Part shown: one piece after another, positions 1 through 12,679 of the stretch
Numbering within the stretch: the first letter of the stretch is position 1
Layout: every line of letters begins with the position of its first letter
Assembly (NCBI GenBank): GCA_938036315.1
Contig: CALHPK010000008.1
Span: forward strand, 1-13,008
Direction: 5' to 3'
Length of the DNA stretch: 13,008 bases
Source of the DNA: an uncultured bacterium
GTDB taxonomy: Bacteria > Calescibacteriota > Calescibacteriia > Calescibacteriales > Calescibacteriaceae
Position numbers and translations under genes: made by a program
Notes under the pieces: generated by a model
Told to the model about the DNA's origin: nothing
Databases searched by the model: none
Seen by the model: the letters and a program-made list of their open reading frames with translations, nothing else

Positions 1-583
1 TAGCTTTCAACACCTCCTTCTCTCTGCCTACCAATTTTGATAGTATAAATATTTTATTGACTATAGATGAAAATTTCTCTTGCTCAAGATTATATTTGAG
101 GATTCTCTCTACCAGAGTTTTGATGTCAGATCCCTTACCGAAAATCCCCAGAGCATTGATATTGGGATTGGGAACCTCCAAATATTTTTCAAAAGGGATT
201 TCATTCAGATCCACCACTTTGAATCCAAAATTGATAAAGCTTTCTAACTTTTCTTTTTGTTGAAGCCTTGAGATGAACTTTATTCCGCAGGTCAGAACTA
301 TCTGAACAATATCATAATCTGGAAATCTTGATTTGAGCATCACCCAGTATTCAAGCATTCTTATGTGAAAATCCTGCTGGTATTGTAGCTGGAATTCGAT
401 GTGAATCAGGGTTTTTTCGCCCTCAACGATAGCTTTGAAGACCTTATCTACTCTTCTTTCCTTGACCGCAGGGAATTCAACATTTGTGATCTCCATAATT
501 TGAGCATTGATGCCCAAAAATGTCAGGAATTCAGGTTCAGTTCCTAGTACAAGCTCCTTCAAGGATGTATCATATCTACCCAT
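1..583 (-). CDS. Rpn/DUF4351-like PD-(D/E)XK nuclease family protein, partial (3' end outside window)
   Basis: Open frame of 194 codons from an ATG at 583 to the left edge without a stop, so the C-terminus is missing. The protein begins MGRYDTSLKELVLG. It has Asp46 in RRVDKVF and, 17 residues later, LIHIEFQLQ with Glu63-x-Gln65, followed by an HIRMLEY segment. This spacing and the ExQ form of the nuclease motif are typical of the recombination-promoting nuclease / 'putative transposase' (Rpn, DUF4351) proteins common in cyanobacteria and other mobile-gene-rich bacteria. Members are predicted metal-dependent DNA endonucleases; RpnA of E. coli is the characterised relative. Upstream there is only a weak purine stretch (AGAGATCC) as ribosome binding site. 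It is transcribed away from the neighbouring operon. Family assignment is from motif recognition; its cellular role is unknown. Confidence 0.8.
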   Translation of the reverse strand, partial: MGRYDTSLKELVLGTEPEFLTFLGINAQIMEITNVEFPAVKERRVDKVFKAIVEGEKTLIHIEFQLQYQQDFHIRMLEYWVMLKSRFPDYDIVQIVLTCGIKFISRLQQKEKLESFINFGFKVVDLNEIPFEKYLEVPNPNINALGIFGKGSDIKTLVERILKYNLEQEKFSSIVNKIFILSKLVGREKEVLKA

Positions 584-1700: not shown

Positions 1701-3182
1701 GTGAGTTTTCAGAATCAAAGAAAAAAGGTTTACGCTCTTTTCTTTGACTTTGACGGTACTATTGCAGATACTGAGAGAGCTCACTATTTTGCTTTCAAAA
1801 AGGTACTCGAAAGGTTCAATTTTGAACTTACCTGGGAAGATTACTTGAAGAAGTACTTAGCATATAAAGATGAAGATTTTTTCTCAGCTGTGGCTCCGAT
1901 TATTGGGATCGGTCAAGATCAAGTTTCTCATTTGTGTGAACAGAAGAAGGAGATATTCTCCCAATTCATAAAGGAAATTAAGCTTTATCCGGGGATTGAA
2001 GATTTTATCAGGTATATGGGAGATCGGGGGTATCTTATGTGTATAGTATCTGGTGCATTGCGGAGCGAAATAGAGACGGTACTTGAGAAATTTCAGCTTC
2101 TCAAATATTTCAAGTTTATCGTATCAGCGGAGGATTATAAGCATGGGAAGCCTTCTCCAGAATCCTTTGAGATTGCAATGAAGATATTTAAAGATAGGTT
2201 TGAGGTGGAGCTTGATCCTGTCGGATGTGTAGCGTTTGAGGATTCTATTTATGGAGTTGAAGCTGCTAAAAAGCTTAATTTTTTTGTTGTGGCAGTTACT
2301 AATTTTTACTCTACGGATGAGCTCAAAAAGTGCGGAGCTGATATAGTAATACAGGAATTTTCTGATCCGCCGAAAATTGAGCAAGAAATTCTGAAAAAGA
2401 TAGGTTCAAGAGTTTTTGAGGGGGATAGAGTTTTACTTTCCGTACCTGGAAAGAATAAGACATTTTTATTTAGGGTTTTATCGAAATCTCAGCTTCATAC
2501 ACATCTTGGCTTTATAGACGGGAAGGATTTATTAGGTAGGTATATAGGGGAGAAAGTATATACGAACAAGGGGAAGGAGCTTTATATTCTTGAACCCACC
2601 CTTGCTGATAAAGTTATGAAATTAGAAAGAAAAAGTGCGATAATATATCCGAAGGATAGCGCTTTTATGATCTTTCTGGCTGGAATAGGTCCGGGGAGTA
2701 AAGTGGTGGAGAGTGGTGCAGGTTCTGGTGGGCTCACTATCCCGCTTGCCCATTTTGTGAGACCCTCTGGGAAAGTCTACGTTTACGAGATAAGGAGTGA
2801 TTTTATAAAAATTCTTAAGAAAAATCTTGATGAGAATGATCTTTCGGAATATGTCGAGGTGAAAGAAAGAGACGTTTACAAATTTGGATTTGATGAAACT
2901 GAAGTGGATGCGGTTTTTTTAGATTTACCTGAGCCCTGGCACTGTGTAAGATTTGCGTGGAATAGTTTAAAGAATTCAGGAGTTCTTATCTCTGTTTCAC
3001 CTACGGTCAACCAAACTGAGATTATGTGTGAAGTGATGAGAAGAGAAGGTTTTATACTAATTGATACTTTCGAAGTTTTGGTTCGCCGTTTCTTAGCAAG
3101 GGAGGGAAAATCGCGTCCCTATGAAAATATGATAGCTCATACTGCATATATATCTGTAGGGAGAAAAGTTTTACGGGATTGA
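1701..3182 (+). CDS. HAD-superfamily hydrolase fused to TrmI-type tRNA (adenine-58-N1)-methyltransferase
   Basis: 493 codons from a GTG at 1701. Residues 1 to about 230 form a CbbY/phosphoglucomutase-like HAD hydrolase: DFDGT with Asp16 and Asp18 (nucleophile and acid), SGA at Ser117, KP at Lys150, and FEDS at 179-182. All four HAD motifs are present, so phosphatase or phosphomutase activity is plausible. Residues about 236-490 form a full-length TrmI: an N-terminal beta domain (EGDRVLL, LHTHLGFIDG), IIYPKD, the SAM-binding loop ESGAGSGG near 337-344, and DLPEPW at 408-413, whose first Asp is the family's catalytic residue. TrmI uses S-adenosylmethionine to make m1A58 in the tRNA T-loop, often linked to heat stability of tRNA. 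The frame is continuous, and no start codon with a ribosome site lies at the junction, so this is one polypeptide. Bacterial TrmI is normally a stand-alone protein of roughly 250-280 residues. The HAD substrate is unknown. Confidence 0.93.
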   Translation: MSFQNQRKKVYALFFDFDGTIADTERAHYFAFKKVLERFNFELTWEDYLKKYLAYKDEDFFSAVAPIIGIGQDQVSHLCEQKKEIFSQFIKEIKLYPGIEDFIRYMGDRGYLMCIVSGALRSEIETVLEKFQLLKYFKFIVSAEDYKHGKPSPESFEIAMKIFKDRFEVELDPVGCVAFEDSIYGVEAAKKLNFFVVAVTNFYSTDELKKCGADIVIQEFSDPPKIEQEILKKIGSRVFEGDRVLLSVPGKNKTFLFRVLSKSQLHTHLGFIDGKDLLGRYIGEKVYTNKGKELYILEPTLADKVMKLERKSAIIYPKDSAFMIFLAGIGPGSKVVESGAGSGGLTIPLAHFVRPSGKVYVYEIRSDFIKILKKNLDENDLSEYVEVKERDVYKFGFDETEVDAVFLDLPEPWHCVRFAWNSLKNSGVLISVSPTVNQTEIMCEVMRREGFILIDTFEVLVRRFLAREGKSRPYENMIAHTAYISVGRKVLRD

Positions 3183-3202: not shown

Positions 3203-3240
3203 GTCCATCATATATATATATCCTAGTTCATCATATATCC
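3203..3240. repeat. AT-rich duplicated motif between convergent genes
   Basis: The 48-bp gap between the convergent HAD-TrmI and murB genes contains two related copies, 3203-3223 and 3226-3240 (GTTCATCATATATCC). They differ by three AT steps and one base, and the second includes the murB stop codon. No GC-rich hairpin is visible, so I cannot identify the terminator that convergent genes would need. Confidence 0.5.
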
Positions 3241-4229
3241 TTAAGGAGAACCGCTTCCTCTTCGAGCTCAATTTTTCTTTGTTCTCTGGCTTTTTCTTTG
3301 ACATAGTCTATTAATTCGTAGATTTCCGCAGCAGGAGCTGAATTTTCGTTTTCAATAAAGTTAGCATGGACTGGAGATATTCTTGCTCTTTTTGATAATC
3401 TGAATCCTTTCAGTCCAAGTTCATCTATTATTTTTCCTGCGGGAGCTTGAGGGGGGTTTTTGAATATACATCCGCAAGTTTTGGCGGTTAGGGGTTGAGT
3501 TTCATATCTTCTTTTAAGATATTCGGACACTTTGCTTTTCACCTCAGTTGGTTTTGCCTTCTTGAACTTCAGGGTTGCTGAAAGGATAATCTGATTATCT
3601 CCTATACTACTCCATCTGTATTCAAATTTAGGCTCTACCTTTTTTATTTCGAAACTCCCGTTGTTTAGAGATAATACTTCAACATTTTCCACAAAGTCAG
3701 AGATTGACCCAAATTTTGTTCCTGCATTCTTCTTTATCGCTCCACCTATACATCCTGGGATTCCACTTATTTTTTCAACTCCTTCGAATCCTTTTTTTAT
3801 ACCGCAGGCTACAATAAATTGTAATGATGTTCCTGCTGAAGCGTATACTTTGAAATGGTCTTTCCATTCTACTTCATTGTGAGACTCAAAAAGGTTAAAT
3901 GATACTGCGAGTCTGGGAATTTTTCCATCTCTCACTATAAGTTTTGACCCGTTTCCTACCGGTATAAATGGTATTTCTTTCTCAATTATGTACTCAAAAA
4001 GTTTTTTTACCTCATCGATATTTCGCGGGAAAGCAAAAGCGTAGGGTTCTCCGCCAACTCCTATCGTGGTAAGATCAGAAAAGGAAATAATTTTTGTGTT
4101 TATACCTAATCGCTTTAGATCTGCAGTTATCCCCCGCCGTCCTCCCTCGAAGTTCATACTAAGACCATAATTTTGATTGAAAAATTTTCCTTTTTTGTGA
4201 AAAATTTTATGAAAGTTTTCAAAGGACAT
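3231..4229 (-). CDS. murB: UDP-N-acetylenolpyruvoylglucosamine reductase MurB
   Basis: 332 codons from the ATG at 4229. MurB is the cytoplasmic FAD enzyme that uses NADPH to reduce UDP-GlcNAc-enolpyruvate to UDP-MurNAc. Visible family motifs: TTIGVGG (54-60) opening the FAD domain, VGNGSKLIV, SGIPGCIGGA with following Asn-Ala-Gly, YRWS with the conserved Tyr, CGCIFKNP (252-259), SPVHANF, and the final LEEEAVLL with the conserved Glu. The spacing fits the type II form. At the position of the catalytic Ser (GSVFKNP in most members) this protein has Cys254. The first A of the start codon is the last base of the upstream porin stop (TAATG), suggesting translational coupling. A second candidate start is ATG at 4157, nearer the usual family N-terminus. 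Pairing with a porin rather than the division/cell-wall cluster is unusual. Confidence 0.93.
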   Translation of the reverse strand: MSFENFHKIFHKKGKFFNQNYGLSMNFEGGRRGITADLKRLGINTKIISFSDLTTIGVGGEPYAFAFPRNIDEVKKLFEYIIEKEIPFIPVGNGSKLIVRDGKIPRLAVSFNLFESHNEVEWKDHFKVYASAGTSLQFIVACGIKKGFEGVEKISGIPGCIGGAIKKNAGTKFGSISDFVENVEVLSLNNGSFEIKKVEPKFEYRWSSIGDNQIILSATLKFKKAKPTEVKSKVSEYLKRRYETQPLTAKTCGCIFKNPPQAPAGKIIDELGLKGFRLSKRARISPVHANFIENENSAPAAEIYELIDYVKEKAREQRKIELEEEAVLLKDI

Positions 4230-5683
4230 TAAAATGTAAAATTCAATCGTGTGTAGAACCAATCTGCATTGCTTTTTTTCGGAAATTCTTGTTTTATGAT
4301 TTTCCCACCAAAAAATCTGGAATACCCTATGTCGAACCAAAATTTAGATGAGTATCTCACGACCAATGTTAAATCTATTTCATTTCCTAAATCAGGACTC
4401 CCTATATCCGATACTCTTGTAGCGGTAACCGTTGTTGAGTATCCTAAGGTTTTATTATTGAATGCTCCGGAGCCAGTATACCAACTATCTGAGCTTGAAT
4501 TAAGAGAGAAAATGTGGAAATCTATAACAAATTCGAAAATATCAATGGTAAAGATGTTCTGAATATATATGTTGCGCAGGTTGGAAAATGCGATCTTATC
4601 CATATATCCGTACCACTTATGGTTAGCTGGAAGAAGGTTGAAAAATGTTTTGTGAGTTTGGTCTTGTGGGTTAGTGTCTCCTGAGGCGTAAGCTATTCCT
4701 GTCCTAAGCCATGGTTTCAGCATAATTTCTGAGAATTGATATCCTACTTCTCCTATGAGTGCAAAAGCATTCTGATTTAAGCCGATAAATTTTCCAAACT
4801 GATATGCTCCCCACAGAACAAAGTCAAGTTCCCCGGGTCCTAATTCTTGAATAGAAACTGCCCTCAATCCTGATGTCTGTATCGCTATATCTTTATTTTT
4901 CCCATCAAATTTTCTTGTATCGTAGTATAATATGTTATATGCTCCAAGTTCTATTCCTCCCAGAGTATCTTTCTTTATTGTGAAGGAGCCTCCGGTGATG
5001 TATACATCAAGCCACTTGTATCCGTCGTCAAAATCTACTCCTCCGCCTAAAGCTCTTGCTCCGAATATAGATATTTTTGAGAAACCGAGGTCATATCCGA
5101 GTGTACCTCCATCAAATTTTCTCCCAGCGTTTGTCCAGTCCAATTCTCCGATAAGGCGTTCCGATACACGCCACATCTTGAGAGAATTGAATTTTTCATT
5201 TTTTTCGTATGTGATATCAGCCCCATCTTTTATCCCGATTCTTCCCAAACTAAAATCTAATTTCCAGATTTTTCCTCCTACGTTAAGTTCTACAAGATGA
5301 AGATCTCCTGGAAAGTTTTTTTTATCATTCTGCTCATAATAAGTTTTTCCCGGACCGAATCTTGCGTCCCGAGGCAGAAAAAGAGCTTTTACTCCTTGAC
5401 TTGCCAACCTGAAATTTAGGTTTCCAAAAGCGATATCGAATTTATTTCTGATTCTTGCTAATATAAAATTGTATGGATTATCACCCCCGATGTCCTTTTG
5501 AAATGTACTCCAAAATTCGTTTCGTAATCTTACTTCTGTTCTGATCCTGAGTTCAGCCAGATCGGAGTTTTCAACATAAGAATCGGAGTTTTCACCATAA
5601 GAATATGAAAAGGTAGCTATATAAATCAAAAAAAGAATAGTAATCGAGAAGATAAAAGGAATGCGACGAAGATTCCAAAGCAT
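4229..5683 (-). CDS. Outer-membrane beta-barrel protein, alginate-export (AlgE-like) family
   Basis: 484 codons from the ATG at 5683. The N-terminus (MLWNLRRIPFIFSITILFLI...) is a classic Sec signal: basic start, hydrophobic core, then FSYSYG. The mature part alternates polar and hydrophobic residues as in transmembrane strands and opens with RIRTEVRLRNEFW, as alginate-export-domain proteins often do. It holds the family's recognisable segment ASGDTNP...NLLPANHKWYGYMDK...NLRNIYI and ends in an aromatic-rich FYTRLNFTF, the usual outer-membrane insertion signal. An in-frame ATG at 5746 would add 21 charged residues (KDSNFCRENFCREHKNKEKY). I prefer 5683 because it gives a normal signal peptide, although the added part contains an in-frame 15-bp duplication. 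The protein probably forms a channel for an unidentified solute; there is no alginate pathway nearby. Its stop overlaps the murB start. Confidence 0.85.
   Translation of the reverse strand: MLWNLRRIPFIFSITILFLIYIATFSYSYGENSDSYVENSDLAELRIRTEVRLRNEFWSTFQKDIGGDNPYNFILARIRNKFDIAFGNLNFRLASQGVKALFLPRDARFGPGKTYYEQNDKKNFPGDLHLVELNVGGKIWKLDFSLGRIGIKDGADITYEKNEKFNSLKMWRVSERLIGELDWTNAGRKFDGGTLGYDLGFSKISIFGARALGGGVDFDDGYKWLDVYITGGSFTIKKDTLGGIELGAYNILYYDTRKFDGKNKDIAIQTSGLRAVSIQELGPGELDFVLWGAYQFGKFIGLNQNAFALIGEVGYQFSEIMLKPWLRTGIAYASGDTNPQDQTHKTFFNLLPANHKWYGYMDKIAFSNLRNIYIQNIFTIDIFEFVIDFHIFSLNSSSDSWYTGSGAFNNKTLGYSTTVTATRVSDIGSPDLGNEIDLTLVVRYSSKFWFDIGYSRFFGGKIIKQEFPKKSNADWFYTRLNFTF
5561..5602 (-). repeat. 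21-bp in-frame tandem duplication in porin gene
   Basis: Units 5561-5581 and 5582-5602 are adjacent and 20 of 21 bases identical. They encode SYGENSD and SYVENSD directly after the predicted signal peptide, so the exported N-terminus carries a short acidic repeat. Confidence 0.95.
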
Positions 5684-5705
5684 GTATTTTTCTTTATTTT
5701 TGTGC

Positions 5706-5735
5706 TCTCTACAAAAATTTTCTCTGCAAAAATTT
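5706..5735 (-). repeat. 15-bp tandem duplication upstream of porin signal peptide
   Basis: TCTCTACAAAAATTT (5706-5720) is followed directly by TCTCTGCAAAAATTT (5721-5735). If translation starts at 5746 it encodes a repeated NFCRE; if it starts at 5683 it lies in the leader. Confidence 0.9.
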
Positions 5736-5761
5736 GAATCTTTCATAATACGAGATAGTAT

Positions 5762-6054: not shown

Positions 6055-6162
6055 TCTATTTTTTGCTCTTTGAGATTTGTAGTGTGAGAGTACCAAAAAT
6101 TTCTGCAAATTATTCTGTTTTCAGAAACAACATTAGTATTGATAAAGAGGAGGATAAAAAAA

Positions 6163-7137
6163 ATGGGCGAGGGAGGGGAGGATTACAAGAAATTCTCAAA
6201 TAAAAAAAGAGGCGTTGAAGGTCAACAGATCGGAGAAAATGGAAAAAAGAAAAAGGGGCAGGTTATCAAAAGAGAAGTACTAAAGAAGATAAGCAGTACA
6301 GTTTTTGCTTCAATCGTTGCTCCTGCCATTTTGGATGAAGTTGTTGAAGCTTCTGAAGGACGGAATGGAGTTTCAATAAAACTTCCAGAACTTCCCCCAC
6401 CACAACCTAATGAAGATGTTCTTATTACGATGATGAGAGATTTGCAGAAAGCTCTTCAAAAACCAATGGAGCAGCGCAAATGGGTAATGGTAATAGATTT
6501 AAGAAAATGCGTTGGTTGTCACGCCTGTACTATTTCTTGCATTGCAGAGAATAAACTACCTCCAGGTGTTGTATATAGACCAGTAATAGAAGAAGAAATA
6601 GGGAAATATCCAAATGTGGCTCGCAGATTTTTACCTCGTCCCTGTCTGCAATGCGAAAATCCACCTTGTGTCCCTGTATGTCCCGTGAATGCAACTTGGA
6701 AGCGACCCGATGGTATAGTTGTAGTTGATTATAAGGCTTGTATTGGTTGTAAATATTGTATTAGTGCGTGTCCGTATGGAGCAAGGACATCTGATTATGG
6801 TGAGTACTATTCTGATGGCACTCCCGAGAAGGTTCAATACGAAGAATTACCAAGTTATGAATATCATTATAAATGGAAAAGGAGAAAAAAGAGATTGTTG
6901 GGAATTATTCTGTATGAGCAAAGTCCAATCGGGAATGTGCTTAAGTGTCATTTCTGCCTGCACCGAATTGAAAGGGGGCTTTTACCTCAGTGTGTAACAA
7001 CTTGTATAGGTAGAGCAACATTCTTCGGGGATGCTAACGATCCTGAATCATTGGTCTCCAAGTTGATTGCACAACCGAATGTGATGAGACTGAAGGAGGA
7101 ATTGGGAACTAATCCTCGTGTATTTTATTTGATGTAA
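6163..7137 (+). CDS. Four-cluster Fe-S electron-transfer subunit of a respiratory molybdoenzyme (TtrB/SrdB/PsrB-like)
   Basis: 324 codons from ATG 6163. AGGAGG at 6148-6153 lies 9 nt upstream and decides the start; an in-frame TTG at 6139 would put that site inside the gene. Sixteen cysteines form four [4Fe-4S] motifs: CxxCxxCxxxC from Cys116 ([11 protein letters not shown]), [24 protein letters not shown], and a split CHFC...CVTTC. This is the DmsB/NrfC/PsrB ferredoxin layout, which relays electrons between the NrfD membrane subunit and the catalytic subunit. The first 110 residues are an extension: about 36 polar, Lys/Gly-rich residues, then [21 protein letters not shown], which resembles a Tat signal with Lys replacing the first Arg. 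TtrB homologues are exported by Tat; here export could be direct or as a passenger of the catalytic subunit. First gene of the operon, 15 bp before the NrfD gene. Confidence 0.92.
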
Positions 7138-7152
7138 AGGGGGGCTATCAAT

Positions 7153-8391
7153 ATGGAAAGCTTGAAAATAAAAGATATGGCTATTGGTTTACGATACGGG
7201 CGGCTTCTTCTTATAGGAGTAGCAATACTCGGTGCAATTGGAATCATCGGAGTTATCCAGCGATTGGGGTGGGGGCATAAATGGACAAACTCCGGAAGTT
7301 ATATTCCTTGGGGGCTATGGGTTGTTGCTTACGCATACTTTGTTGGAATATCATCCGGATCATTTCTACTTTCTTCTCTTCTTACATATGTCTTTCGCAT
7401 ACATGTTCTGAAAAAGATTGGTGTTGCTCCATTAATCACTGCAATCATCGCTCTCTTTTTGGGACTGATAAGCATCTGGTTTGATCTTGGACATATGGAG
7501 CGTGTCTATTACGTATTCACTCGTCCAAATTTCAATTCTATAATGGCGTTGATAGTTTGGCTCTACACAGCCTATTTTATTTTCCTGATCCTTGAGCTTT
7601 ATTTAGCGCTCAGGGTAGCAGCGAGTGATACTCCTAAATCACCACTGAGTAGATTATCAAATGAGCGAGCTCTTCGCATTCTCGGTGTTCTCGCAAGTTT
7701 GGGTATACTTCTGGATATTGCTATCAGTGGTGGAGTCGGAGCTCTCTTTGGTACTGTATCAGCTCGTCCTATGTGGCATAACCCACTTTATCCGATATTC
7801 TTCATATTGCTAGCTATGATCTCTGGAGGAGGAGTGCTTATGGCAGTTGTAGCCTTTCTATATCCTATGTTGGAAGAAGAACGAGAAGCGGTGTTAAAAT
7901 CTATAGGGAGGGTTGTTGCAGCAATTATGATTTTTGAGCTACTCTTAGAGTGGGCAGAATTTTCTATCCCAATGTGGTATGGAGTATATGGAGAAGAAAT
8001 AAAGAACATGAAGTTGATTCTTTTTGGACCATCCTGGTGGGTCTTCTGGATCATACATTTGTTGATTGGTTTTGTGGTATCGCTTGTACTTATTTTTGCT
8101 GGACGGAAAACTTGGCAGTGGGGTTTAGCAGGACTTCTCATCACGTTGGGTTTTGCAGCAAGCCGTTATTATAATATTGTGATTCCGGGCCTTATCACTC
8201 CTGTTTTGCCTGGTCTTGAGGAAGCATTCGTAGATCATCGTCTCAGGCACGAGTATGTCCCATCAATTAGTGAGTGGTTGGTCTTTATATTCCTTATTGC
8301 TGTAGGAGTGTTCCTTATCTATATAGCTAATTTGCTTCTCGTGCATGGCAAATTTGTGCAGATAAATTTGAAGGAGGAAACTAAGCAATGA
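7153..8391 (+). CDS. NrfD/PsrC-type integral membrane quinol-oxidising subunit (TtrC/SrdC-like)
   Basis: 412 codons from ATG 7153, with AAAGGGGGG about 9 nt upstream. About ten hydrophobic segments can be counted, near residues 18-36, 55-79, 91-111, 128-150, 174-200, 212-236, 249-265, 290-316, 320-345 and 380-400. The segment YIPWGLWVVAYAYFVGISSGSF is the hallmark of the NrfD/PsrC family, whose members bind quinone in the membrane and pass electrons to the Fe-S subunit without haem. LGHMERVYYVFTRPNFNSIM is another family-like stretch. Its stop overlaps the catalytic-subunit start (ATGA), and the strong AGGAGG for that gene lies inside its last codons. Arginine codons here are mostly CGN (13 of 17 by my count), unlike moaA and the HAD-TrmI gene, where AGA/AGG dominate. 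Confidence 0.93.
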   Translation: MESLKIKDMAIGLRYGRLLLIGVAILGAIGIIGVIQRLGWGHKWTNSGSYIPWGLWVVAYAYFVGISSGSFLLSSLLTYVFRIHVLKKIGVAPLITAIIALFLGLISIWFDLGHMERVYYVFTRPNFNSIMALIVWLYTAYFIFLILELYLALRVAASDTPKSPLSRLSNERALRILGVLASLGILLDIAISGGVGALFGTVSARPMWHNPLYPIFFILLAMISGGGVLMAVVAFLYPMLEEEREAVLKSIGRVVAAIMIFELLLEWAEFSIPMWYGVYGEEIKNMKLILFGPSWWVFWIIHLLIGFVVSLVLIFAGRKTWQWGLAGLLITLGFAASRYYNIVIPGLITPVLPGLEEAFVDHRLRHEYVPSISEWLVFIFLIAVGVFLIYIANLLLVHGKFVQINLKEETKQ

Positions 8392-11300
8392 GTAAAGGTA
8401 AAGGAAAAACATCAAAATGTTTGTATAAAACACGGCGGGAGTTCTTAAAAAAATCCGCCGCAGTTGCGGTGGGGACACTTCTGGGGAGTGGGTGTATTCG
8501 CCGTTATCACAAGTTCAGCTTTGAGCCCAGTGCTGATTACGAATTGAATCGGCCAGAAAATATCATATATTCCGTCTGCTTGCAGTGTAATACTGGCTGT
8601 GGAATAAAAGTAAAGATTCAAGATGGAATAGCTTCTAAAATTGATGGAAATCCGTTAGCTCCTCAAACTCTACTTCCACACCTCCCATATAAAACTTCCG
8701 TTGATGTTCTTGCCGCAATTGATGGAGCCCTTTGTCCAAAGGGACAATCTGGATTACAAACTGCTTACGACCCATATAGAATTAGGAAAGTTCTAAAGCG
8801 CGCAGGAAAACGTGGTGAAAACAAATGGATAACTATCTCTTTTGAGCAGGCTATTGATGAGATCGTCAATGGCGGATATTTATTCAAACACGTTCCAGGT
8901 GAAGAAAATAGATATGTTCCAGGTCTTAAGGATATATGGGCTCTCAGAGATCCAAAAGTCAGTAAAGAGATGGCAGAAGAAGTAGGGAAAATAAGGAAGA
9001 TAGCAAAAGAGGTAAATGCTGGTAAAAAACCAAAAGAAGAACTTCAAAAAGCAATAGATGAATTTAAGGAGAAGTTTAAGGATTACCTTGATACTCTGAT
9101 TGATCCAAATCACCCAGATCTTGGTCCAAAAAATAATCAACTAGTTTTTGCTTGGGGACGTCTGAAAGCTGGAAGATCGGACCTTGTCAGAAGATTCATA
9201 AGCGATGCTTTTGGATCTGTAAACAGACACGGGCACACCACTGTTTGCCAGGGTAGTCTCTATTACGCTTGTAAAGCTATGAGTGAGCAATGGGAATATG
9301 ATCCAAAGAGCAAAGAGGTTAAATGGACAGGTGGTAAAAAGTTCTATTGGCAAGCAGATACTGGAAATTCTGAATTTATAATATTTGTTGGAGCTTCCCC
9401 CTTTGAAGCTAACTATGGTCCTCCCGGACGCTCAGTAAGAATCACAACCGGGATATCTGACAACAACATGAAAATTGCCGTTATTGATCCAAGATTCAGT
9501 AAAACTGCTTCTAAAGCTTGGAAATGGATTCCTATTAAACCTGGAACTGAAGGAGCTTTTGCCTTAGCAATGATCCGTTGGATTATTGAGAATAATCGTT
9601 ATGATGCTAAATATTTAGCTAATGCTAACAAAGCTGCAGCAAAAGCCGATAATGAACCAACATGGAGCAATGCCACATGGCTTGTAAAAATTGATGAAAA
9701 AGGTAAACCTGGAAAATTCCTAAGAGCACATGAGATTGGTATTGCACCAGTACAGAAGCGCAAAGCCGAAGATGGAACAGAATATGATTATGAACTTTTC
9801 GTAGTTCTTAAAGATGGAAAACCAATACCAGTAGATCCAAACGATGATAAAAATCCTGTAGAAGGTGATCTTTTTGTAGATACTACAATAAATGGAATTC
9901 GTGTAAAATCTGCTCTTCAATTACTTTACGAGTCTGCAAGTGAATATAAACTTGAAGAATGGGCTGAAATTTGTGGCGTTAAGGTTGAAGATATTATAGA
10001 ATTAGCAGATGAATTTACAAAACATGGTAAGCGAGCTGTTGCTGACGTACACAGAGGTGTTAGCCAGCATACAAATGGGTTTTATAGCTCCTTAGCTTGG
10101 AATTCTCTCAATTTACTTATTGGTAATTACGATTACAAAGGTGGATTTATTCAAAAAAGTGAATGGAATGCAGTAGGTGATAAAGGAGAAAATCAACCAT
10201 TTAACATTAGAAAATTACATCCAAAGAAGCTTACCCCATTTGGTATTAGCATTATTCGCCATGAAGTTAAGTACGAGGATACTACTTTATTTAATGGATA
10301 TCCAGCAAAACGTCAATGGTATCCTCTTTCAAGTGATATATATCAAGAAATTATTCCAAGTATAGGTGATCAATATCCTTACCCTGTAAAATGCCTTATA
10401 TTCTACATGGGATCTCCAGTTTACGCTTTACCTGGAGGTGATAAAACCATTCCTATTCTTATGGATACTGAAAAGTTACCACTCTTTATTTCAATAGATA
10501 TAACCATAGGTGAAGCATCACTATATGCAGATTACATTTTCCCAGATCTTTCTTATCTTGAAAGATGGGAATTCCACGGAAGCCATGCAAGTTTTGCTCC
10601 CAAGATTCAGCCAATTCGTCAACCTGCAATACCTCCAATTCCAGAAACTGTGAAAGTTTTCGGTCAGGAAATGCCTATTTCTCTTGAAGCATTCTTTTTA
10701 GCAATAGCAGAAAAGTTAGGACTTCCTGGATTTGGAAAAGATGGTTTTGGACCCGGTATGGACTTTACTCATCCGGATCATTTCTATCTAAAAATGGTAG
10801 CTAATGTGGCTGCAGGAGAAAAACCAGGACAAGAAGTTCCCGATGCTAATGATAGGGAAGTTGAAATATTCTTAAAGGCACGCAGGCATTTACCAAAAAG
10901 TGTTTTCGATGAGGAACGCTGGAAAAACAGTGTTGGAGAAGCTTGGTGGCGTAAAGTTATATATGTTCTCAATCGTGGAGGAAGATTTGAAGATTACGAT
11001 AAAGCATACGATGGTGTATATGTAAAGCACAAATATAAAAAACTTATTAATCTCTATAGTGAAAAAACAGCTACCACTAAGAATGCAATGACTGGAAAAT
11101 CATATATTGGAATTGCAAAATATTTCCCACCTTATACTGACTGTATGGGCAATCCAATTGAAGATAAAGAATATGATTTAACGCTTACTACCTATAAAGA
11201 TATTACCATGACAAAATCAAGAACAATTAGTAATTATTGGCTTTTGGGTGTTTTACCTGAAAATCCTATTCTTATCAATTCAGAAGATGCCAAAAGGCTC

Positions 11301-11690
11301 GGACTTAAAGATGGAGATCTCGTTAAAGTTATCTCCGCATCTAATCCAGAAGGTGTTTGGGACCTTGGTCCTATGGGTAAAAAACCACTTATAGGTAAAA
11401 TTAAGGTTATTGAAGGAATCCGCCCCGGTGTTATATCTTTTGCACTTGGATACGGCCACTGGGCTTATGGTAGTAGTGATATTGTTATTGATGGAAAAGT
11501 TATAAAGAAAGATAAGAGGAGAGAAAAGGGAGTTCACTTGAATGCTGCTATGAGAACTGATCCTGTAATAACTAATACACCACTAACAGATCAAGTTGGT
11601 GGTAGTGTTGTTTTCTATGAGACAAAAGTGACATTGAAGAAAATCAGGGAACAGGAACTGAAATTCTTCAGAAATTTAAGGGCGATCTAA
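8388..11690 (+). CDS. Tat-exported molybdopterin oxidoreductase catalytic subunit (TtrA/SrdA-like)
   Basis: 1100 codons, ATG 8388 with AGGAGG at 8372-8377. The N-terminus has a clear twin-arginine signal, [15 protein letters not shown] (Arg16-Arg17), so the folded enzyme is exported. Cys64, Cys67, Cys71 and Cys116 (CLQC..C, CPKG) bind the proximal [4Fe-4S] cluster. Cys287 in [16 protein letters not shown] is in the place of the Mo/W ligand, as in cysteine-ligated PsrA/TtrA-type enzymes. [10 protein letters not shown] (near 365) and the C-terminal ITNTP...GGSVVFYE belong to the bisMGD-binding fold. A charged helical stretch (about 185-225) precedes [16 protein letters not shown]. Length and the B-C-A gene order resemble tetrathionate reductase TtrA (about 1020 residues) and selenate reductase SrdA. 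Substrate could also be polysulfide, sulfur or arsenate; I cannot decide. Cys36 follows GSG, not a good lipobox. Confidence 0.93.
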
Positions 11691-11722
11691 CATTTATGAT
11701 CTAAGAAAGTTTAAATCAGATT

Positions 11723-12679
11723 ATGAATCTTTTTGATGGATACGGTAGGAAAGTAAGCTACCTCAGAATTTCTCTCACAGACAGATGTAATCTGCAGTGT
11801 TTCTACTGTAGAAAGGATAATTTGATTTTTTATAAAAAAGAGGAAATTCTCACAATTGAAGAGATAAAGTTTTTGATCTCCGTTTTTCGCGATAATTTCG
11901 GAATTAGTAAAGTTCGTTTCACAGGTGGAGAACCACTTCTGAGGCGAGGAATTGAAATTCTCATAAAGGGATTGAGCAACTCAAATTTATCGCTAAATAT
12001 AACTACAAATGGAATATTGCTTAAAGAATTTGCTCACCTTTTGTCTGAGAATAATATCGGGGTAAATGTGAGCCTTGATACACTAGTCCCTGAGAAATTT
12101 AAAAAGATCTCAGGAAGTTCTGACCTAAAACGAGTGATAGAAGGTATTGATACAGCTTTGCAAGTCGGAGTCAAACTGAAGATAAACACTGTCCCTTTGC
12201 GTGGTATAAACGATGATGAAATATTTGACCTGATTGATTTTGCATCTTCAAGAGGTGTTGTGATAAGATTTATTGAATTTATGCCATTTGTAAATGAGCT
12301 CATTTGGAAAAAATATTATGTTCCAGAAGATGAATTGAAAAGTATAATTGTTCAGAAATACAGGCTCTATGAGATAGATCAAGATGGTTCAACCGCACGT
12401 TACTATGAACTTGAAAACGGAGCGAAGATCGGATTTATATCAACAGTTTCTAAACCATTTTGTCACAGTTGCTCAAGGGTAAGAATAACTTCAGACGGTA
12501 ATTTAGTTTTGTGTATGTTTGATAAGTTCTCATATCCATTAAAGCAATTTTTGAGACCCAAAATAAGAGAGAATCAACTTATAGAATATATCAGCACAGT
12601 GGTCAAGTTGAAACCAAAAGGGTACGTCGAACTTAAGGAAAGAAAATCAGGCTTTGCAATGATAAAACTTGGTGGCTAA
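11723..12679 (+). CDS. moaA: GTP 3',8-cyclase MoaA (molybdenum cofactor biosynthesis)
   Basis: 318 codons. MoaA is a radical-SAM enzyme that converts GTP to 3',8-cyclo-7,8-dihydro-GTP, the first step of molybdopterin synthesis, in the cytoplasm. Cys22-x3-Cys26-x2-Cys29 binds the SAM cluster, GGEP at 68-71 contacts SAM, and Cys247-x2-Cys250-x13-Cys264 binds the second cluster that holds GTP. The protein ends in Gly-Gly, the tail known to be needed for MoaA activity. It starts 32 bp after the catalytic subunit with only a weak purine-rich site (AAGAAAG) upstream, and no terminator is visible between them. Co-transcription would couple cofactor synthesis to its main user. Its stop TAA overlaps the moaD start (TAATG). 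Confidence 0.96.
   Translation: MNLFDGYGRKVSYLRISLTDRCNLQCFYCRKDNLIFYKKEEILTIEEIKFLISVFRDNFGISKVRFTGGEPLLRRGIEILIKGLSNSNLSLNITTNGILLKEFAHLLSENNIGVNVSLDTLVPEKFKKISGSSDLKRVIEGIDTALQVGVKLKINTVPLRGINDDEIFDLIDFASSRGVVIRFIEFMPFVNELIWKKYYVPEDELKSIIVQKYRLYEIDQDGSTARYYELENGAKIGFISTVSKPFCHSCSRVRITSDGNLVLCMFDKFSYPLKQFLRPKIRENQLIEYISTVVKLKPKGYVELKERKSGFAMIKLGG

Follow-up and report, generated by a model that had tools for sequence, protein, structure and literature searches.

All five sampled species of the Calescibacteriota, a little-known bacterial phylum of hot springs, encode a HAD-type phosphatase and the tRNA m1A58 methyltransferase TrmI in one continuous gene. Judging from the sequences compared, we consider it likely that the product is a phylum-specific bifunctional protein, in which a housekeeping m1A58 methyltransferase and an active small-molecule phosphatase act independently. 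The gene was studied in a window of 13,008 nt, i.e. the whole stretch of DNA that was analysed, taken from contig CALHPK010000008.1 (assembly GCA_938036315.1, Calescibacteriaceae). It occupies positions 1701..3182 of the forward strand, begins with a GTG start and encodes 493 aa plus a stop. The phylum, formerly EM19 or Calescamantes, was described from springs of ~80 °C (PMC4791363). The four named Candidatus Calescibacteriota records are Ca. Calescibacterium nevadense OTU 1, Ca. Calescibacterium sp. SKYB43, bacterium HR19 and MAG BF2.bins.44.

An earlier note on this DNA had reported a continuous frame of 493 codons with complete active-site motifs in both halves. Both statements hold: 1701-3182 (+) is a single open frame without interruption, and all of the motifs were found where the note had placed them. 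The frame divides into three parts. The first is a HAD_2 (class IA, C1 cap) phosphatase domain (1734..2366, + strand, residues 12-222), which is supported by Pfam, by PDB sequence and fold matches and by residue invariance. It is followed by a linker (2367..2411, + strand, residues 223-237), mostly helical by AlphaFold2 prediction, and by a TrmI (GCD14) m1A58 methyltransferase (2412..3173, + strand, residues 238-491) consisting of an N-terminal beta domain and a catalytic domain.

For the methyltransferase half the Pfam profile GCD14 matched residues 294-471 with 135 bits compared to a cut-off of 26 (E 4.6e-39), and thus the half belongs to the family by the curated profile cut-off. The PDB sequence matches were 1o54 (residues 232-492, E 6.4e-57, ~39% identity) and 5c0o (residues 251-486). 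As the 1o54 alignment spans residues 232-492, this half is a whole TrmI including the small N-terminal beta domain. The SAM loop SGAGSGG is located at ~338-344 and DLPEPW at 408-413. Chain 5c0o aligns at a constant offset of 238, which equates Y316 and D408 with Y78 and D170 of T. thermophilus; both residues are invariant in the fusions, and PDB titles name T. thermophilus mutants of both. The beta domain, the SAM loop and the catalytic Asp and Tyr together also identify the half as a TrmI, and a Foldseek search with the fusion model returned TrmI structures. In the AlphaFold2 model, built from five input sequences, some regions of the TrmI catalytic domain have low confidence, probably due to the shallow alignment of only five sequences. 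Both domains, the SAM glycine loop and DLPEPW are common to the fusion and to known TrmIs (PF08704; 1o54 = Thermotoga maritima TM0748, P. abyssi 3mb5, T. thermophilus 2pwy, A. aeolicus 2yvl). However, prokaryotic TrmIs of solved structure stand alone and have a length of ~250-280 aa, whereas the Calescibacteriota protein carries an extra N-terminal HAD of ~230 residues. TrmI is tetrameric and m1A58 is important in thermal adaptation (PMC4125815, PMC3281791). No second TrmI was matched in the genome of the window, where the fusion is the sole TrmI match. Its C-terminal half would be the cell's m1A58 tRNA methyltransferase and would work as a tetramer, aiding tRNA stability at high temperature. 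An N-terminal extension on TrmI looks tolerable. With one HAD per N-terminus, four phosphatase domains would be expected to lie on the outside of the tetramer.

In the HAD half Pfam HAD_2 covers residues 14-199 with 114 bits compared to a cut-off of 23.8 (E 8.7e-33), the four motifs and the C1 cap place the domain in class IA, and class IA HADs matched residues 8-222 in the PDB sequence comparison. Sequence and fold matches in the PDB included 3kbb, 4gib, a BT2127-type pyrophosphatase, HDHD1A and CbbY; with Foldseek, beta-PGM, the BT2127-type pyrophosphatase, HDHD1A and CbbY were recovered at a TM of ~0.7-0.8 of the target. AlphaFold2 (five sequences) modelled the half as a C1-cap HAD fold with a pLDDT around 90 over most of its length. 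The C1 cap, DxD, Ser/Thr motif II, Lys and ED motif are held in common with the PGMB-YqaB group (TM_1254/3kbb, BT2127-type pyrophosphatase 3qu2, HDHD1A 9m7l, CbbY 4uar, beta-PGM 1lvh/4gib). Unlike that group, the fused HAD has YLA-x-x-D-x-x-x-F in the cap in place of the usual G, and it is joined to a methyltransferase. The earlier note had also considered a mutase. This is unlikely: the beta-phosphoglucomutase profile TIGR01990 gave 80.6 bits compared to an equivalog cut-off of 189, and the cap loop has A at position 54, where 26 of the 29 other sampled HADs have G. By the curated TIGR01990 cut-off the half is not a beta-phosphoglucomutase, and among the matches listed the half scored below all NCBIfam equivalog cut-offs. 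Fused HADs and their stand-alone relatives have the cap motif Y-x-x-x-Y-L-A-x-x-D-x-x-x-F (residues ~48-61) and S-G-A at motif II in common, and the HAD half is a member of a subfamily that is apparently uncharacterised. We would expect the half to be an active phosphatase of HAD class IA that depends on Mg but not on TrmI, and its substrate would be a small phosphorylated metabolite.

We then compared the fused proteins across the phylum. HAD and TrmI lie in one frame in all five Calescibacteriota genomes sampled (three genera) at 58-67% identity. Split genes, which had been named beforehand as evidence against a fusion, were absent from these five genomes, as were frameshifts. All of the genomes compared are draft assemblies, in which two neighbouring genes could be merged by a sequencing or assembly error. 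However, the same stop-free junction occurs in five independent assemblies that differ as much as the above identities indicate, and we regard such an artefact as practically inconceivable; the occurrence in every phylum genome sampled excludes chance or misassembly. In the alignment of the five orthologs D16, D18, S117, K150, E180 and D181 of the HAD are invariant, and so are DLPEPW and most of the TrmI glycine loop. The data support the earlier proposal that two apparently active enzymes are genuinely fused.

The two halves differ in their rates of change. Between the window and its orthologs the HAD is 49-59% identical and the TrmI 67-75%, and on these alignments the HAD half is the faster-evolving one. 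Synonymous sites were saturated or nearly so in most fused pairs and we took dN/dS from the closest pair (L022/L025), which gave ~0.14 for HAD and ~0.06 for TrmI. Both halves are thus constrained by purifying selection. The stronger divergence of the HAD would suit a domain that serves merely for structure or oligomerisation and whose activity is irrelevant. Such a role is quite unlikely, as no HAD catalytic residue varies, the cap motif of the subfamily is largely invariant too and the dN/dS of the half is about 0.14.

At the junction the earlier note had seen no internal start, and for the window sequence we came to the same result: neither the window nor the ortholog L024 has an in-frame ATG, GTG or TTG between residues 205 and 262. 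In the orthologs L022, L023 and L025 two or three of these codons occur near the junction, as would be needed if internal initiation gave a free TrmI besides the fusion. No codon is common to all five, however, and with two of the five sequences lacking one in this region this reading is very improbable. The AlphaFold2 model places a helix at 223-235 in the linker with a pLDDT above 80. The fusion may also be cleaved by proteolysis into separate halves in vivo.

To see how widespread the architecture is, we searched 386 bacterial genomes for PF08704. Of the 70 genomes with a match, a HAD was detected in the frame of the TrmI only for the five Calescibacteriota. Most other TrmI frames are about 250-310 aa long and thus have no room for a second domain. 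In eight longer frames (L026-L033, 338-544 aa) profiles detected no HAD, and the extra stretches of six of them contained no further Pfam domain. When six further phyla were searched by profile, TrmI turned up many more times, but never fused to a HAD. In all, over 100 further TrmI matches came from several hundred other bacterial genomes, and not one was joined to a HAD. Viral contigs gave no relative, and the papers searched contained no report of a TrmI-HAD fusion. Among the bacteria searched the fusion is therefore not widespread but clade-specific.

A likely origin can be read from the phylum of genome G074 (57 genomes). Close HAD orthologs stand alone in nearly every genome there, and a stand-alone TrmI is present in most; the two are always separate genes, on different contigs or at different positions. 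Since this phylum carries HAD and TrmI separately, the fusion probably formed from two genes that already existed. The HAD tree places the fused HADs in a single clade, whose sister consists of the G074-phylum orthologs and a few HADs of other phyla (support of the joint clade 98/86). The fused TrmIs likewise make up a single clade close to the TrmIs of the G074 phylum, although the tree does not settle the exact sister. On these trees the simplest history would be a single joining of the two ancestral genes in the Calescibacteriota stem, head to tail and before the sampled genera diverged.

We also considered whether the two activities are linked. The HAD could, for example, clear away phosphorylated nucleosides, phosphates at tRNA ends or metabolites by which methylation is limited. 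Alternatively, it could sense a metabolite and tune TrmI. The fusion is kept throughout the sampled phylum with both active sites retained, and HDHD1A, which in humans is a pseudouridine-5'-phosphatase, ranks among the top HAD matches. However, HDHD1A is just ~24% identical in the fold search, on par with other HADs. In the G074 phylum the HAD orthologs stand free, away from TrmI, and family f294, with genomes of about 1 Mb, has kept the HAD with no TrmI match. In several families of that phylum the stand-alone HAD adjoins gmk, relA/spoT, signal peptidase and arsenosugar genes, in other families unrelated genes, and no tRNA genes were among these neighbours. As the neighbours differ between families, they give no firm function. 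The roles that the earlier note had suggested, a coupling of tRNA modification to metabolite removal or a HAD that serves for dimerisation or regulation, are thus not supported by the data, and a coupling of the HAD to tRNA modification is unlikely. The more specific case, in which m1A58 formation is tied to a particular phosphatase reaction (e.g. on a nucleotide or sugar phosphate reflecting the metabolic state) and the protein is a metabolite-responsive tRNA-stability enzyme, is highly doubtful. A precedent is the bifunctional MtlD (7ocn), in which an N-terminal HAD phosphatase is joined to another enzyme, mannitol-1-phosphate dehydrogenase. The halves of MtlD act in sequence in one pathway, whereas no common pathway is evident for the Calescibacteriota fusion. 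For two independently acting enzymes the tether would probably provide co-expression rather than channelling.

The novelty lies in the domain architecture, which combines two known families and is lineage-specific among the sequences compared. Both halves are ordinary enzyme families and no coupling is evident, so that the interest is modest. The architecture is distinctive for Calescibacteriota and could serve as a phylum marker. In the Rosetta-stone sense it also offers a hint on a HAD subfamily that is conserved but uncharacterised and elsewhere occurs as a separate protein. A coupling, if true, would connect metabolism to tRNA modification in a new way, in a thermophilic phylum.

Just upstream of the fusion are two small genes without a known domain (860-1252 and 1271-1684, both + strand), which gave no clue to its function. 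Among the loci compared, the trio of these genes and the fusion was observed only in the genome of the window and in L024; the first gene (860-1252) is conserved elsewhere in the phylum, on other contigs. An arsenosugar biosynthesis cluster (ArsM-like, AhpD-like, ArsS radical SAM and CofC-like glycosyltransferase; L047:7757-12150, L054:1667-6065) was repeatedly a neighbour of the stand-alone HAD ortholog and of gmk and relA/spoT. One such ortholog lies at L054:6287-6967. Further along the window, 6139-12679 (+) is a putative respiratory operon with a TtrB/DsrO-like 4Fe-4S protein, an NrfD-like membrane protein and a TtrA-like molybdopterin oxidoreductase of 1100 aa, followed by moaA. Only moaA scored above its curated cut-off and the other three stayed below the equivalog cut-offs; the arrangement points to a divergent reductase of sulfur compounds, accompanied by its cofactor gene. 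The listed frame of murB (3231-4340, - strand) overlaps the upstream gene for an alginate-export-like porin (4229-5746), and the true murB start is therefore probably downstream of the listed one. At the window edge the frame 2-583 (-) is cut off; it is weakly similar to Rpn-family PD-(D/E)XK nucleases/transposases.
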